Shown here piece by piece: positions 142 to 8,790 of a DNA stretch of 35,526 nucleotides. Origin of the DNA: an uncultured bacterium (lineage in GTDB: Bacteria > Bacillota_I > Bacilli_A > RF39 > UBA660). The notes beneath the pieces are model-generated. The model did not search any database and had not been told where the DNA came from. It saw only the letters and a list, made by a program, of their open reading frames with translations. The stretch spans positions 1 to 35,526 of the forward strand of contig CASDWO010000004.1 of NCBI GenBank assembly GCA_949284575.1. Direction: 5' to 3'. Both the position numbers and the translations under genes were made by a program. How positions within the stretch are numbered: position 1 is the stretch's first letter; every line of letters begins with the position of its first letter.

Positions 142-2064
142 TTAAGAAATTTTATCTAATTCTTCTAAAATTCCCTTAAAATTAGCTTCACTAGGCATTC
201 TTAAATCTCCTCTTGGAGATAGACTAATAGTACCTACTTTAACTCCATCTGGAATAGCATTTCTTTTAAATTGTTGGGTATAGAAACGCCTAACAAATAC
301 TTTTAACCATTTTTTTATCTCATCATCACTAAAACTATCTTTAAATGTTAGTTTAGCAAGTAAATATATTTTCTTAAAAGAAGCTCCATATCTTAACAAA
401 TGATATAAAAAGAAATCGTGTAAAACATAAGGACCGATACTAGACTCTGTCTTTTGTAAGATATTACCTGCTTCATCAGGTGGTAATAACTCTGGAGAAA
501 TAGGAGTATCTAAGATATCTGTTAAGATCTCTTTTCTTTTATCGGTGCTGTTATCTTTAACATAACATACTAAATATCTTACTAAAGTCTTAGGAATAGA
601 TGAATTAACAGAATACATACTCATATGATCACCATTATAAGTACACCAACCTAAGGCAAGTTCTGATAAGTCTCCTGTACCTATAACAATACCACCTAAC
701 ATGTTAGCGATATCCATAAGTATTTGCGTTCTCTCTCTTGCCTGAATATTCTCATATGTAACACTTCTATCAGATTCAACTAGACCAATATCCCTCATAT
801 GAAGTATACTTGCTTCCTTAATACTAACTTCCCTTAAAGTCGCACCATACTCTTTAACTAAATTAATAGCATTTAAATAAGTCCTATCAGTAGTACCAAA
901 TCCAGGCATTGTAACACCTATAATATCTTTATTATCACGACCAAGTTTTTGAAAAGCACGAACTATAACAAGAAAAGCAAGAGTAGAATCAAGTCCTCCA
1001 GACATACCAATTACACACTTAGTATTATTTAAGTGAATTAGACGTCTTGCAAGGGCACTACTTTGAATCTCTAAAATCTCTTCAAATCTTTTTTCTTTAT
1101 CATTAACAGGTATAAAAGGATACATCTTATAAGTCCTATCAAGAGTCTTTATTTTATCACAAACATCAACTTCTATTACTTTATAGTCTCCATTATAAAC
1201 ACTACTAGTAAAACTACTATTACGACATCTTTCATTAATTAATCTTCTAACATCTATATCTGTATATATTAAATTACTCTCTAACTCAAACCGTTTATTA
1301 GATTTAAGTAACTTACCATTCTCATAGATTAAAGAAGCTCCTCCAAATACTAAATCAGAAGTTGATTCCATAATACCACTACTTGCATAAATATAACCTG
1401 ATATTGTTTTAGCAGATTGCATAGAAACTAGATTTCTTCTATAACTATCTTTACCAACAATTTCATTACTACTAGATAAATTAAAGATAATAGATGCTCC
1501 ATTTAAAGCATGATTATTACTAGGAGGATTAACCGCCCATAAATCTTCACATATTTCTATTGCAAAACTAACTTCTCTATATTTCTTATCTCTAAATAAT
1601 AACTTAGTAGAAATAGGAACCACTTGATTTAATAGTCTTACTTCACTTACTCTTAAATCAAAACTAGAAGTAAACCATCTCTTCTCATAAAATTCACTAT
1701 AATTAGGTATATAACTCTTAGGAACAATACCAATAATATTACCTTTTTCTATTATAACAGCAGTATTCAAAAGTTGATTATTACATCTTAACGGCATCCC
1801 TATAATAGAAATAATATCTAAATCTTTAGTAGATTCTATAATAATACTTAAAGCTTTCTTTCCTTCATCAAGTAATTCATCTTGTAAAAACAAATCCCCA
1901 CAAGTATAACCAGTAAGAGCAAGTTCAGGAGTAGTAACAATTGATACACCTTCTTTATCTGCTTTCTTAATCATTTTAACTATCTCTTTAGCATTGTCTA
2001 AAGGACTTGCAAGTACTAACTTATTAACAATTGCCCCTACTCTAACAAAACCATATTCTAACAC
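142..2064 (-). CDS. nadE: glutamine-dependent NAD+ synthetase
   Basis: Catalyses the last step of NAD synthesis: nicotinate adenine dinucleotide plus ATP and glutamine gives NAD+. Numbering here is from the upstream ATG at 2085. The N-terminal nitrilase-type glutaminase domain shows the Glu-Lys-Cys triad (E54, K123, C179 in EICEDLW). The C-terminal synthetase domain has the PP-loop SGGLDST (362-368) and a GTGDLSELALGW motif. Length is normal for the two-domain form. I place the start at GTG 2064: AAGGAG lies 9 nt before it, whereas it abuts the ATG at 2073 directly and lies inside the frame from 2085. The resulting N-terminus (LEYGFVRVGA) matches how the family begins. It is the last gene of the operon; its initiation region lies at the stop codon of the radical SAM gene, which suggests translational coupling. 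Confidence 0.96.
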   Translation of the reverse strand: MLEYGFVRVGAIVNKLVLASPLDNAKEIVKMIKKADKEGVSIVTTPELALTGYTCGDLFLQDELLDEGKKALSIIIESTKDLDIISIIGMPLRCNNQLLNTAVIIEKGNIIGIVPKSYIPNYSEFYEKRWFTSSFDLRVSEVRLLNQVVPISTKLLFRDKKYREVSFAIEICEDLWAVNPPSNNHALNGASIIFNLSSSNEIVGKDSYRRNLVSMQSAKTISGYIYASSGIMESTSDLVFGGASLIYENGKLLKSNKRFELESNLIYTDIDVRRLINERCRNSSFTSSVYNGDYKVIEVDVCDKIKTLDRTYKMYPFIPVNDKEKRFEEILEIQSSALARRLIHLNNTKCVIGMSGGLDSTLAFLVIVRAFQKLGRDNKDIIGVTMPGFGTTDRTYLNAINLVKEYGATLREVSIKEASILHMRDIGLVESDRSVTYENIQARERTQILMDIANMLGGIVIGTGDLSELALGWCTYNGDHMSMYSVNSSIPKTLVRYLVCYVKDNSTDKRKEILTDILDTPISPELLPPDEAGNILQKTESSIGPYVLHDFFLYHLLRYGASFKKIYLLAKLTFKDSFSDDEIKKWLKVFVRRFYTQQFKRNAIPDGVKVGTISLSPRGDLRMPSEANFKGILEELDKIS

Positions 2065-2069
2065 ATTAA

Positions 2070-3317
2070 TCATCTCCTTAAACATTTTTGATAACCAACA
2101 GGAATACCCTTCTTTTCAAATTCCTCTTTTAACTCTAAAAATCTTAAATGTAGTGTATCTTCTTTAAAGAAATCTCTAACATTATCTTGATAAAAATTTG
2201 AAGTATAATATTCCCACTGATAATAAAACATCTCATATTCCATTCTTTTTCTTATCTCTAAATCTTTCTCTAAGAAAGCACTTTTAGATGTATATAAATC
2301 ATAATCATAGACACTAACTAAATCTTTATATTGATCCCATATCTTAGTACCTCTAAAAGGCATTAAGAAATTACCACATACCATTTCAGGTTTTAACTCA
2401 TAAAATCTCTCTAATAATCTATCATAAAAGTCTCTACTCTCTTCTTCATTATGTACTTTTAATGGATTAACAATAAAAGATAAGTAAGTCATAATATCAT
2501 TCTCATGAAGTAAATCACATGCTTTATCTAATTCTTTATTTTTAGCATAATTAACAGTAATATCTTCAAGTCCTAAACAGACCATATAGACATTATGTAA
2601 CTTCATAAACTCTACTGTATCTACATTTAATAGATTAGCAGAAGCGAAAAGATATATTTTAGCATCAAGACTACTTATAACTTCTAATCTTTCTTTAAAG
2701 TCTTTCTGTAAAGGAAAGTTCTCATCACGGATAAAAATGTACTTAGGATTATATTGTTTTAAATAATTAATCTCTTTTTCAATTAACTCTATAGGTTTAG
2801 ACATTAACTTATCACACATCAATGGACTACAACAAAAGTCACAATTAAAGGGACAACCTTGTGAAGTATTAATAGAAGTACAAACATCATCTTTTAATTT
2901 ATCAGGTATAATCTGTTGATTATTTCTAATATCATATAAATCATATCTAGGTATCTTATTATAGTTAGTAATACCTTTTACAATATCTCCCTCTTGATTA
3001 ATAGTTGCATAAAAATCATCACAAGGCCCTACAATAACTTTAGAAGCATAAGGTAAAAACTCTTCCGGATTAATAGTAGGTTCATATCCTCCTACAATAA
3101 TTTTACTTTTATCATGTTTTAAAGCCCACTTCTTAAACTCATTCATACCTGTAATATAAATAGAACAAGCATACTTTTCAACCTTATTATCATCAAAATC
3201 TTTATTTTCCATAGAATACATAACATTATCTCCATCAGGAAGTACCGTTAATAAAGATGGCTCTAATCCTAAAGTAACATCTTGTCTTGGAAAAGTCATA
3301 CCAATAATTTTTTTCAC
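2070..3317 (-). CDS. radical SAM protein with N-terminal B12-binding-like domain, function unknown
   Basis: 415 aa. Residues about 1-140 resemble the Rossmann domain that precedes many radical SAM cores (VGGYEPTINPEEFLP, then VIVGPCDDFY, like the GG...P and GE/GD motifs of B12-binding domains). No DxHxxG cobalamin motif is visible, so it may not bind B12. The radical SAM cluster motif CxxxCxxC is C155-C159-C162, inside GCPFNCDFCC. The start is GTG with AGGAGG 8 nt upstream; that SD is formed by the last two Arg codons (AGG AGG) and TAA of the Nudix gene. It sits between the Nudix gene and nadE in a tight operon, so a link to NAD or nicotinamide chemistry is inferred from position only. The substrate is unknown. 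Confidence 0.88.
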   Translation of the reverse strand: MKKIIGMTFPRQDVTLGLEPSLLTVLPDGDNVMYSMENKDFDDNKVEKYACSIYITGMNEFKKWALKHDKSKIIVGGYEPTINPEEFLPYASKVIVGPCDDFYATINQEGDIVKGITNYNKIPRYDLYDIRNNQQIIPDKLKDDVCTSINTSQGCPFNCDFCCSPLMCDKLMSKPIELIEKEINYLKQYNPKYIFIRDENFPLQKDFKERLEVISSLDAKIYLFASANLLNVDTVEFMKLHNVYMVCLGLEDITVNYAKNKELDKACDLLHENDIMTYLSFIVNPLKVHNEEESRDFYDRLLERFYELKPEMVCGNFLMPFRGTKIWDQYKDLVSVYDYDLYTSKSAFLEKDLEIRKRMEYEMFYYQWEYYTSNFYQDNVRDFFKEDTLHLRFLELKEEFEKKGIPVGYQKCLRR

Positions 3318-3322
3318 TATTT

Positions 3323-3916
3323 TTACCTCCTCTTAATATATTTTTTAGATAATTCTAAAGCATATTTAGACTGTATATCTTTAATATACCCCATTTTAAC
3401 AAGTTCTAATACTTCTTCATAATTACACAAGAAATATCTAACAAATTCATCTTTATCTAGCTTCTGTTCTTTTACCTTTTCACAGTCTAAAGCAAGATAA
3501 GCATAGTTATATGCTTCACTACAACCTTGGTCTTGATAGAAAGAATCAAGATACTTAATATTATCAGAGTAATATCCTGTCTCTTCAATAAGTTCTCTTT
3601 TAGCAGAAATCAAAGGATTTTCTTTATCTTCTACATAACCAGCAGGAAATTCAACAAGAAATCCTTCTTTAACTGGTCTAGGTTGTACTATTAATAAAAA
3701 CTCATTATCTTTAGTAACAGGTAGCATAACAACGGCATCACCATTACTATTACCTTTAATTATTTTATCTCTAAAGATAGTGATACCGTTATTAAGTAAA
3801 CAGTTATAACTTTCTACTTTTATATAAGAATTATTACTTCTTTCTAATAAATTTCTTTTAATTATTTTTAATTCTTCTATATAACAATGTAACTCTTCTA
3901 ACTTCTCTTTTCTCAT
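3323..3916 (-). CDS. Nudix hydrolase, probable ADP-ribose pyrophosphatase
   Basis: 197 aa with a complete Nudix box at residues 93-115 (G-x5-E-x7-REL-x-EE-x-G-Y), preceded by EFPAG as in ADP-ribose pyrophosphatases of the NudF/YqkG type. Such enzymes split ADP-ribose to AMP and ribose 5-phosphate, clearing a product of NAD breakdown. There is no helix-turn-helix tail, so it is not an NrtR-type Nudix regulator. It lies 9 bp after pncB and 5 bp before the radical SAM gene. The family is certain; the substrate is inferred from the sequence flavour and the NAD operon context. Confidence 0.92.
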   Translation of the reverse strand: MRKEKLEELHCYIEELKIIKRNLLERSNNSYIKVESYNCLLNNGITIFRDKIIKGNSNGDAVVMLPVTKDNEFLLIVQPRPVKEGFLVEFPAGYVEDKENPLISAKRELIEETGYYSDNIKYLDSFYQDQGCSEAYNYAYLALDCEKVKEQKLDKDEFVRYFLCNYEEVLELVKMGYIKDIQSKYALELSKKYIKRR

Positions 3917-3925
3917 TTTTCTTTC

Positions 3926-5383
3926 CTACTTTTTAACTAATTTCTTTTCTTCATCTATCATTTTATTTTTAACATTCCATAAATCATAACTTAAATCAAC
4001 ATGTACAGGATGAGGATTTACAAATCTTTTATTCTCTTCACTCAAAGTTTCTTTTTCCATACTACAGTAATCTCTAAGCTCCATCACACTATCACTTTTA
4101 TAAACACATTCCCCATTTATAAATATTGGTTCTAACAACTCTCTTACTGTATAAGTACCTTTCTCTAATTCTTTTCTCTTCCAAGTATCTACAGGATCAA
4201 ACATTATAGTTGTCTCTTTCTCACTATATTTTTCATTTGCAAAGCCAATAATATCTCCTCTAATTTTACCTGTTTCTTTATCATAGAATCTAAATATTTG
4301 TTTATCTCCTGGATTAGTAATTTTTACTCTATCTTCACTAAGTTTAATCTTAGGAATAACAACTCCAGATTTCTTAATGGCTGCAAGTTTATAAACTCCT
4401 CCAAAACTAGGACAATCTTTAGAAGTAATTAAGCTTGTACCTACTCCCCAAAGATTTATTTTAGCATCTTGTTCTTTTAAAGATTCTATTAGATATTCAT
4501 CCAAATCATTAGAAGCACAGATGGTTGCATCAGGAAATCCTGCTTCATCTAACATGATTCTTGCTTTTTTAGATAGGTATGCTAAGTCTCCACTATCAAG
4601 TCTTATTCCATATTTTTTAGGCATCTTACCTTGTTCTTTTAATTCTTTAAAGACTCTTATCGCATTAGGAACACCTGAATTTATTGTATCATAAGTATCT
4701 ACTAGTAAAGTTGCATTATTTGGAAAAAGTTCTGCATATTTCTTAAAAGCCTCATATTCACTATCAAAACTCATAATAAAGCTATGTGCATGAGTTCCTG
4801 CAACAGGAATATTAAACTCCCTACCAGCAAGAACATTACTAGTTGATGAACATCCTCCAATAACTGCTGCTCTTGCCCCATATACACCTGCATCAGGTCC
4901 TTGTGCTCTTCTAAGTCCAAACTCCATAACAGCATCACCTCTAGCCGCTTCACACACTCTTGACGCTTTAGTAGCAATTAAACTTTGATGATTAATAATA
5001 TTTAAAATAGCTGTTTCCACAAGTTGAGCTTCTATAATAGGAGCTTCTACTTTTAATAAAGGCTCCATTGGAAAGACAACAGTTCCTTCTTTAATAGCAT
5101 AAATATTACCAGTGAACTTAAAGTTTTCTAAATATTTTAAAAACTCTTCATCAAAAAGCTCTAATTCTCTTAAGTACTCAATATCATCTTTCTCAAAATG
5201 TAAATTTTTAATATAGTCAATTACTTGTTCAAGTCCTGCTACAATAGCATATCCTCCGTCTGATGGATTTTTACGATAAAAGACATCAAATACTACTCTT
5301 TCATCCCTTCTCATATCAAAATATCCATTCATCATAGTAAGTTCATATAAATCAGTTAATAAAGTTAAATTTTCTTTTTTCAT
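3926..5383 (-). CDS. pncB: nicotinate phosphoribosyltransferase
   Basis: 485 aa, normal for the bacterial enzyme. Joins nicotinate to PRPP with ATP to give nicotinate mononucleotide (Preiss-Handler salvage). Recognisable stretches are the N-terminal LLTDLYELTMMNGYF, then EFGLRRAQGPDAG (residues 154-166), and GTHAHSF, where H200 is the likely phosphorylated histidine. LVDTYDT and RLDSGDL follow, as in the family. SD AAGGAA lies upstream of ATG 5383. It is the second gene of the operon, 43 bp after pncA, whose product nicotinate is its substrate. Confidence 0.97.
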   Translation of the reverse strand: MKKENLTLLTDLYELTMMNGYFDMRRDERVVFDVFYRKNPSDGGYAIVAGLEQVIDYIKNLHFEKDDIEYLRELELFDEEFLKYLENFKFTGNIYAIKEGTVVFPMEPLLKVEAPIIEAQLVETAILNIINHQSLIATKASRVCEAARGDAVMEFGLRRAQGPDAGVYGARAAVIGGCSSTSNVLAGREFNIPVAGTHAHSFIMSFDSEYEAFKKYAELFPNNATLLVDTYDTINSGVPNAIRVFKELKEQGKMPKKYGIRLDSGDLAYLSKKARIMLDEAGFPDATICASNDLDEYLIESLKEQDAKINLWGVGTSLITSKDCPSFGGVYKLAAIKKSGVVIPKIKLSEDRVKITNPGDKQIFRFYDKETGKIRGDIIGFANEKYSEKETTIMFDPVDTWKRKELEKGTYTVRELLEPIFINGECVYKSDSVMELRDYCSMEKETLSEENKRFVNPHPVHVDLSYDLWNVKNKMIDEEKKLVKK

Positions 5384-5410
5384 TTAAATCATTCCTTTCT
5401 TTTTATCAAA

Positions 5411-5424
5411 TTATTAATATCAAA
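5411..5424. repeat. 14-bp motif repeated upstream of pncB and pncA
   Basis: TTATTAATATCAAA occurs here in the pncA-pncB gap and again at 6040-6053 in the pncA leader, same orientation, each a short way upstream of a ribosome binding site. The first ten bases also occur within the operon operator. AT-rich sequence makes chance similarity possible; the function is unknown. Confidence 0.4.
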
Positions 5425-5426
5425 TT

Positions 5427-6014
5427 CTAAATTTTTTTAACTAACTGAATCCCTTGTTGTTCCATAAGTAAATAAGCTGCATCTACATAGTTTTGTCTAT
5501 CATCTTCTGCAAAGGTTGCAACAGCATCTTTATGTACTCTTATAATACTATCTCTATTATGTTCATCAAGGTAATTTGCAAGGCCAATAGATCCATTGCA
5601 TACACAAATATCAGTACAACAGCCTACGATATCAAATTCTTTTATATTAGTTGCATTATCAATCATTTTTCTAAAAGACTGTGCTTCCATAAAATTTGTA
5701 GAGTTCTTAGGTATACAGATAGTATCATCTAAATTAGTAAAAGGTTTTAATTCGTCAACTACTTCCTCTTCTCCACTACCTTTAAGACAGTGATAATCTG
5801 GAAATCTCTTATGTTCCATAGATTCTTTAGTATGGGTATCTTGGATAAAGATAACTAATTCTTTTTCTTTATTATATTCTTTAATAAGTTCTATCTGTCT
5901 AGGTATAATTTTAGTGATAGATTTATCATGTAACACTCCTTCCTTAACAAAGCCATTAACCATATCAACAACAATTAAAGCTTTATTATATACTTTTAAA
6001 TTCTTAAGTTTCAT
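5427..6014 (-). CDS. pncA: nicotinamidase (isochorismatase-like cysteine hydrolase)
   Basis: Hydrolyses nicotinamide to nicotinate and ammonia, feeding PncB. Numbered from ATG 6020, the catalytic triad is D19 (VVDMVNGF), K105 (PKNSTNF) and C139 (TDICV). The metal-binding pattern is D61-x-H63 with H77. I prefer the internal ATG at 6014: AGGAGG lies 7 nt before it but abuts the upstream ATG. It is the first gene of the NAD operon, about 70 nt after the promoter start point. The family could include other isochorismatase-fold amidases, but the neighbouring pncB makes nicotinamidase the clear choice. Confidence 0.94.
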   Translation of the reverse strand: MKLKNLKVYNKALIVVDMVNGFVKEGVLHDKSITKIIPRQIELIKEYNKEKELVIFIQDTHTKESMEHKRFPDYHCLKGSGEEEVVDELKPFTNLDDTICIPKNSTNFMEAQSFRKMIDNATNIKEFDIVGCCTDICVCNGSIGLANYLDEHNRDSIIRVHKDAVATFAEDDRQNYVDAAYLLMEQQGIQLVKKI

Positions 6015-6081
6015 AAACATTCCTCCTCTTATTAACTTTTTATTAATATCAAAAGCTTAAAAATTAGCAAGTATTTAAACT

Positions 6082-6106
6082 TGTTATTAACATTATATTA
6101 ATAACA
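6082..6106. promoter_or_regulatory. dyad operator overlapping the NAD-operon -10 box
   Basis: Perfect inverted repeat: TGTTATTAA (6082-6090), 7-bp spacer, TTAATAACA (6098-6106). The spacer contains the -10 hexamer, so a bound dimer would block RNA polymerase. Only one arm lies downstream of the -10, so an RNA hairpin is an unlikely explanation. The binding protein is not encoded in the window; a niacin- or NAD-responsive repressor is inferred from the genes controlled. Confidence 0.7.
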
Positions 6107-6130: not shown

Positions 6131-6165
6131 AAAAAAAATAAATTCTCTAAACAATTTAGAGAATT
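6131..6165 (-). terminator. terminator of the GntR-ABC operon
   Basis: Perfect 10-bp stem AATTCTCTAA / TTAGAGAATT (6141-6150, 6156-6165) with a 5-nt loop, followed on the minus strand by TATTTTTTTT. It starts at the stop codon of the permease gene and separates this operon from the NAD promoter. Confidence 0.85.
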
Positions 6166-8134: not shown

Positions 8135-8790
8135 TTAACATAATTATCTATAATATATTTTAAGTCCTCTATCGCTTTATCTATATTAAATGTTCCATTA
8201 CCAACTGGATAATAGACTGGAAATACTTTATAAGTATTACTACCTATTTCTTTTTCAAAGTATTGTTTTCTACACTCTCCTACTGATACTTTCTTATTTA
8301 AAATAATTGATGATACTTGATTACCAAAAGTAATTATTATTTTAGGTTTAACTATATCCATTTCTTGTTCTAAAAGTCCAAGATAACTTCTTAAGACTTC
8401 ATCTTTTAGAGGTCTTGCATCTGTTTGCGTACACTTACCTAAGTTTGTTATAAAGTAGTTATTTCTTTTAACCTCATCATAGACTTTGTTAGCAAAAAGA
8501 TAGTCCCAGTCTTTAGATTTCTTTTCATTTATTTCATCTAAAAGACTTTTATCAAAAAGATTAATGGCTGTAAATAGTTTCCAGATGTTCTTAGTACCAA
8601 GCCAAGGAGCCTTTAAGCCTTTCCAAGTTTTGGGGCTTGCAATGTTTCTTCCAGTTGGATTCATAAAAACAAATAATATATCTGGATTATTAGATTCTCC
8701 TCCATTATAGATAGAATCTAAGGTTTTATCACCATACTTCTTTTGTAATTTGTCGTATTCCTTATATAACTTTTTAAACTTCTCTTCCAT
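8113..8790 (-). CDS. uracil-DNA glycosylase superfamily protein
   Basis: 225 aa. The order of motifs matches the UDG fold: FVFMNPTGRN (residues 40-49) at the place of GEAPG, YFITNLGKC (112-120) like vTNvvKC, IIITFGNQVSS (151-161) like ivalG..A, and VYYPVGNG (192-199) at the place of the HPS loop. The catalytic motif residues are not those of canonical family 1-5 enzymes, so activity on uracil is uncertain. The SD GAAAGG lies 7 nt before the ATG; the gene follows the 255-aa unknown gene by 13 bp and ends the operon. Confidence 0.65.
   Translation of the reverse strand: MEEKFKKLYKEYDKLQKKYGDKTLDSIYNGGESNNPDILFVFMNPTGRNIASPKTWKGLKAPWLGTKNIWKLFTAINLFDKSLLDEINEKKSKDWDYLFANKVYDEVKRNNYFITNLGKCTQTDARPLKDEVLRSYLGLLEQEMDIVKPKIIITFGNQVSSIILNKKVSVGECRKQYFEKEIGSNTYKVFPVYYPVGNGTFNIDKAIEDLKYIIDNYVKDTVKTK

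Follow-up and report, generated by a model that had tools for sequence, protein, structure and literature searches.

The window analysed here is a stretch of 35,526 nucleotides of contig CASDWO010000004.1 (assembly GCA_949284575.1), from an uncultured bacterium of the GTDB lineage Bacillota_I; Bacilli_A; RF39; UBA660, and has a GC content of 28%. On its minus strand we find an operon for NAD salvage with the gene order pncA-pncB-Nudix-radical SAM-nadE, headed by a consensus promoter (TTGACA-17-TATAAT) whose -10 box is enclosed by a perfect 9-7-9 inverted repeat. The original prediction had called this promoter, repeat and gene order, and each is present as claimed. The features of the locus are listed below, "operator site" denoting a predicted repressor-binding site.

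6120-6115, minus strand: -35 hexamer TTGACA
6097-6092, minus strand: -10 hexamer TATAAT, inside operator site B, with a 17-bp spacer to TTGACA
6082-6106: operator site B, the perfect 9-7-9 dyad TGTTATTAA-CATTATA-TTAATAACA, centred on the -10 box (31.0 bits, family matrix)
6068-6083, minus strand: small hairpin CAAGT-N6-ACTTG, which begins within the edge of site B and lies at the 5' end predicted for the pncA mRNA
6027-6051, minus strand: operator site C, TGATATTAATAAAAAGTTAATAAGA (23.3 bits), its position kept in relatives
5427-6014, minus strand: pncA, nicotinamidase (PF00857)
5398-5422, minus strand: operator site within the operon, TGATATTAATAATTTGATAAAAAGA (23.3 bits)
3926-5383, minus strand: pncB, nicotinate phosphoribosyltransferase (NF006695, TIGR01513)
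3323-3916, minus strand: Nudix hydrolase of 197 aa without an HTH, with intact Nudix signature GYVEDKENPLISAKRELIEETGY
2070-3317, minus strand: radical SAM protein, its N-terminal part B12-binding-like
142-2085, minus strand: nadE, glutamine-dependent NAD synthase (NF002730)

The ATG at 6014 is more likely to be the start of pncA than 6020, since the ribosome-binding site GGAGGA lies at 6026-6021. The domain search found no HTH in the Nudix protein, as had been stated beforehand; this enzyme is a possible ADP-ribose pyrophosphatase. Radical SAM genes recur in or beside the NAD operons of relatives as well as at 2070-3317 of the window: They are seen at L105:8947-10020 and L105:5181-5981, one of the L105 genes having an operator at its own ribosome-binding site, and at L118:4547-7223, where three such genes follow an operator array.

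By itself, the dyad at 6082-6106 is weak evidence, near chance at the composition of the window. There are three perfect 9-7-9 repeats, compared with 0.63 expected from dinucleotide shuffles (at most two in any of 30 shuffles), and 17 repeats with spacers of 3-10, compared with 5.7 expected on the same basis. The dyad is significant because of its position on the -10 box, together with a near-identical copy at the promoter of another NAD operon in the genome and conservation at most pncA orthologues of the family. Another perfect 9-7-9 repeat (6141-6165), with a T run after it on the minus strand, is likely to be the terminator of the upstream ABC-transporter/GntR-type operon.

The genome assembly to which the window belongs comprises 1.48 Mb in 110 contigs and is 93% complete. 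Genome-wide scans were pattern searches, the matrix being applied to extracted loci. At one mismatch or fewer there is a single other copy of the dyad, on contig C49 (locus L011) at 8612-8636, with one mismatch. This copy covers the -10 box of another TTGACA-17-TATAAT promoter, before the operon prs-nadD-pncC-CHC2-nrtR-nadK, so that the check suggested with the original prediction, a search for further copies by NAD genes, gave a positive result. A relaxed consensus with up to two mismatches matches six places in the 1.48 Mb, every one of them in the two NAD operons:

Window: 6082-6106, 6027-6051 and 5398-5422
C49: 8612-8636, 8556-8580 and 5564-5588, the last a degenerate site at the start of nrtR

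Two of the window copies thus lie beyond the dyad noted originally. Site C is 55 bp from site B and touches the pncA ribosome-binding site; the site at 5398-5422 lies in the pncA-pncB gap, touches the pncB ribosome-binding site and has counterparts in the relatives L102, L105, L110 and L112-L114, among others. The window has no counterpart of site A, which some relatives carry 41 bp upstream of B; the score at that position is -29.9 bits.

The fifth gene of the C49 operon encodes a transcriptional regulator of the NrtR type:

L011:4722-5573, minus strand: nrtR, 283 aa, Nudix domain and NrtR winged helix

The protein has an N-terminal Nudix-like domain (PF00293, 47.7 bits, residues 55-138) and a C-terminal winged helix (NrtR_WHD, PF21906), which exceeds the cut-off of 27 with 57.4 bits and reaches 61.3 bits in the genome search, where it is the sole match. 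Its Nudix signature, GFLDPKKETLENCAKRVLKRETNL, is broken by one insertion and by changes at three signature positions, and the signature is broken in the NrtR of relatives too; the impairment is as in NrtR regulators without catalysis, and loss of activity is predicted. Among proteins of known structure, its relatives are BtAraR and SoNrtR. An AlphaFold model (mean pLDDT 79.8) retrieves 5bs6 (E 2e-17) and the SoNrtR-DNA complex 3gz6 (E 4e-15) in Foldseek. Against the NCBIfam equivalog NF050029 (NtrR model) the protein scores 150.7 bits, under the cut-off of 400, which may reflect a stringent model derived from other lineages, since the protein passes the Pfam cut-off and agrees in fold and context. 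Its closest named relatives are from Candidatus Onthousia (Bacilli). The gene is linked in the genome to NAD genes, upstream of which lie conserved palindromes.

Three further candidates for control of the NAD genes were rejected. NiaR has no match in the assembly (PF02829, the 3H domain; 93% complete); the CHC2 zinc-ribbon protein is found only in this genome's NAD cluster; and an Rfam search of the window and L011 at the gathering score returned two tRNAs only, with no NAD riboswitch.

A conserved TG(T/A)TATAATCA that looks like an extended -10 promoter lies a short distance upstream of nrtR, or of a small gene that precedes nrtR (seen at L011:5564-5588, L101, L103, L105, L110, L111, L114, L121, L138 and L140, among others), and overlaps a degenerate operator. 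The combination suggests a separate, autoregulated nrtR promoter. In one relative, an NT5C-like 5'-nucleotidase gene (L125:14983-15558) lies ahead of nrtR and behind the extended -10 site; it is conceivable that this enzyme acts on nicotinate or nicotinamide mononucleotide.

Loss of the dyad upstream of orthologous pncA genes had been named beforehand as the finding that would count against an operator. Instead, most pncA orthologues of the family are preceded by the dyad, with position and sequence conserved. A pncA relative is present in 41 of 145 family genomes, and NrtR in every one of these 41 (Fisher P 4e-34), NrtR occurring without pncA in two genomes; the dyad (one mismatch or fewer) is present in 32 of 43 genomes with NrtR and in 3 of 102 without (P 2e-19), these P values being indicative since related genomes are counted as independent. 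A larger draw taken at order level gave 70/95 and 13/193, respectively (P 5e-32, to be read in the same way), and is no independent test, since the genomes listed all belong to the window's own genus or family and overlap the family sample.

We examined six exceptions. In three (G307, G157, and G212), the sites are off-consensus in the centre. The other three (G219, G165, and G285) have canonical sites and no convincing NrtR was found in their assemblies, which are fragmented, so that gaps are possible; in G219, of the same genus, the canonical site adjoins pncA. Weaker NrtR-like proteins of ~200-270 aa occur in many family genomes and are possibly AraR-like sugar regulators. About 100 of the 145 family genomes have neither pncA nor a close NrtR, so that many members of the family may meet their need for NAD in a different way.

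A matrix built from 58 loci gives the 25-bp consensus TSTTWTTAAYAWWWTRTTAAWAASA. At 12 bits it finds 170 sites, compared with five in a reversed-sequence control; at 20 bits, 80 named loci, some of which share genomes, yield 170 sites and the reversed control none. The sites are arranged with some regularity. Site A, where relatives have it, lies 41 bp upstream of site B, just before the -35 box. The distance from B to the next site downstream is in most cases 53-56 bp, a second cluster of distances lying near 46-52; several long leaders have a middle site at about the 53- to 56-bp spacing and another that touches the ribosome-binding site. The 41- and 55-bp spacings cannot both be accommodated on one helical face, which counts against the reading proposed below. 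Once sites A and B are set aside, 61 of the remaining 82 run straight into a ribosome-binding site with a start codon and an open frame behind it, and operon-internal sites are found before pncB, prs and nrtR.

The regulator of the window's NAD salvage operon is most likely the NrtR of the C49 operon, since that second NAD operon, with its near-identical -10 site, encodes the only NrtR of the genome. The original prediction had the -10 box covered by an operator for a repressor, for which conservation now provides support (repression itself being predicted), and a regulator outside the window, which agrees with nrtR lying on C49 in an operon with a like operator. It had left the regulator's identity open, a position not borne out given the single PF21906 match in the second NAD operon, and had considered a niacin or NAD sensor; of the homologues it proposed to look for, NrtR was found and NiaR was not.

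We propose that the 25-bp site on the -10 box would be occupied by an NrtR dimer, which would block RNA polymerase there. More dimers would sit on the copies ~55 bp downstream, next to the ribosome-binding site of pncA, and between pncA and pncB, with a possible role in cooperative binding or as roadblocks. If this NrtR behaves like those already characterised, ADP-ribose, a breakdown product of NAD, would free the repressor while NAD is consumed, and the operon's Nudix enzyme may clear this signal. The sites, consensus promoters, conservation, nrtR gene and co-occurrence are observed; NrtR binding, repression, ADP-ribose as inducer and what the additional sites do are all steps that we infer. 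As a whole, the reading of the dyad as a promoter-core NrtR operator, with extra NrtR copies downstream and release by ADP-ribose, is one that we hold with high confidence. We are more doubtful about a second control layer, in which the copies at ribosome-binding sites might act beyond promoter occlusion through a gene-by-gene polymerase block or translation coupling; this idea is tentative.

A different repressor, of the NiaR, NadR or Rex type or some further factor, might instead bind the dyad, NrtR being encoded nearby by chance. The three genomes with canonical sites and no NrtR found would fit such a case, as would the fact that NrtR binding is itself deduced. However, the genome has no 3H/NiaR domain; among the genes compared, no further DNA-binding regulator is common to the NAD clusters, the CHC2 zinc-ribbon gene being confined to the cluster of this genome; NrtR is present in every pncA genome of the family sample; and the start of nrtR has a degenerate site as well. 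We regard a different repressor as very improbable.

Since so many sites directly precede ribosome-binding sites, those of internal genes included, they could also be mRNA hairpins that steer translation or decay. The halves of the site do not covary, however; G-U pairs are as rare as A-C pairs, and G-G forms the outer pair in 53 of 74 unique sites, being the usual outer pair of the downstream class. For these reasons we take the sites to be DNA operators and reject the RNA reading, to which we give little credence. The centre, which would be the RNA loop, is conserved, and the motif is common with the promoter-core site, which lies mostly upstream of the expected transcription start. The small leader hairpin shows a different pattern: a stem of at least five pairs just after site B is present in 39 of 51 orthologous leaders, compared with 11 expected from a shuffle that preserves base composition only, the transcription start being predicted, and there are compensatory changes (e.g., AAGT/ACTT, AGAT/ATCT, and AAAC/GTTT). 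That the dyad is a functionless, chance inverted repeat in AT-rich DNA, where ~0.6 perfect 9-7-9 repeats are expected at the window's composition, is hardly credible given its conserved position and sequence at most pncA genes, the copy at the second operon, and 170 matrix sites compared with five in the control.

The assignment to NrtR can be compared with known systems. In Mycobacterium smegmatis the NrtR box is GTTTTCGA-N7-TCGAAAAC and ADP-ribose disturbs DNA binding (PMC6800001). It resembles the window site, GTTATTAA-N7-TTAATAAC, in being a 23-bp palindrome of 8-7-8 layout with GTT...AAC ends, and the two systems share a Nudix-related regulator without catalysis as well as NAD genes and nrtR as targets (PMC6800001), both features being predicted here. 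The original prediction had judged the site to be unlike an NrtR palindrome; this is unsupported, because the 8-7-8 layout is shared and NrtR motifs differ between taxa (PMC5343134; PMC4666351). The differences are in the inner arm (GTTTTCGA there and GTTATTAA here), in the targets (nadABC in M. smegmatis; the salvage genes pncA-pncB and prs-nadD here), and in the number and placing of the sites, of which there are several per promoter here, with some at ribosome-binding sites.

NrtR of Streptococcus (S. suis and S. sobrinus) is likewise from Bacilli, controls NAD salvage including pncB, and has a Nudix signature that is not conserved (PMC12735969). Its motif differs, being ATA-N-TTTA-N3-TAAAA-N2-ATA as quoted in PMC6800001; one to two sites per genome are reported, and the wHTH of the S. 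sobrinus protein is described as N-terminal (PMC12735969), whereas the winged helix here is C-terminal. AraR of Bacteroides thetaiotaomicron, a member of the NrtR family (5bs6), is the closest solved structure to the C49 protein by sequence and fold and also has tandem sites upstream of its targets, 3 bp or 42 nt apart (PMC4666351), but it responds to arabinose, controls sugar genes and has a reported motif of 21 bp (PMC4666351). NiaR and NadQ are also regulators of NAD genes, NadQ having an NrtR-type HTH and palindromic sites (PMC5343134); NadQ is without the Nudix domain (PMC5343134) that the NrtR here possesses, and the NiaR domain is not found in this genome.

The type of regulator is therefore already known, whereas the lineage motif and the array layout appear new: We found no description of this motif or of an array at ribosome-binding sites in the literature searched, a comparison that lay outside the founding NrtR and NiaR papers and RegPrecise. 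The repeated sites at ribosome-binding sites within operons are unusual and testable. The analysis links a known repressor to the NAD salvage operon of this uncultured gut lineage and predicts its binding motif, with which the regulon can be traced in the family's other genomes.
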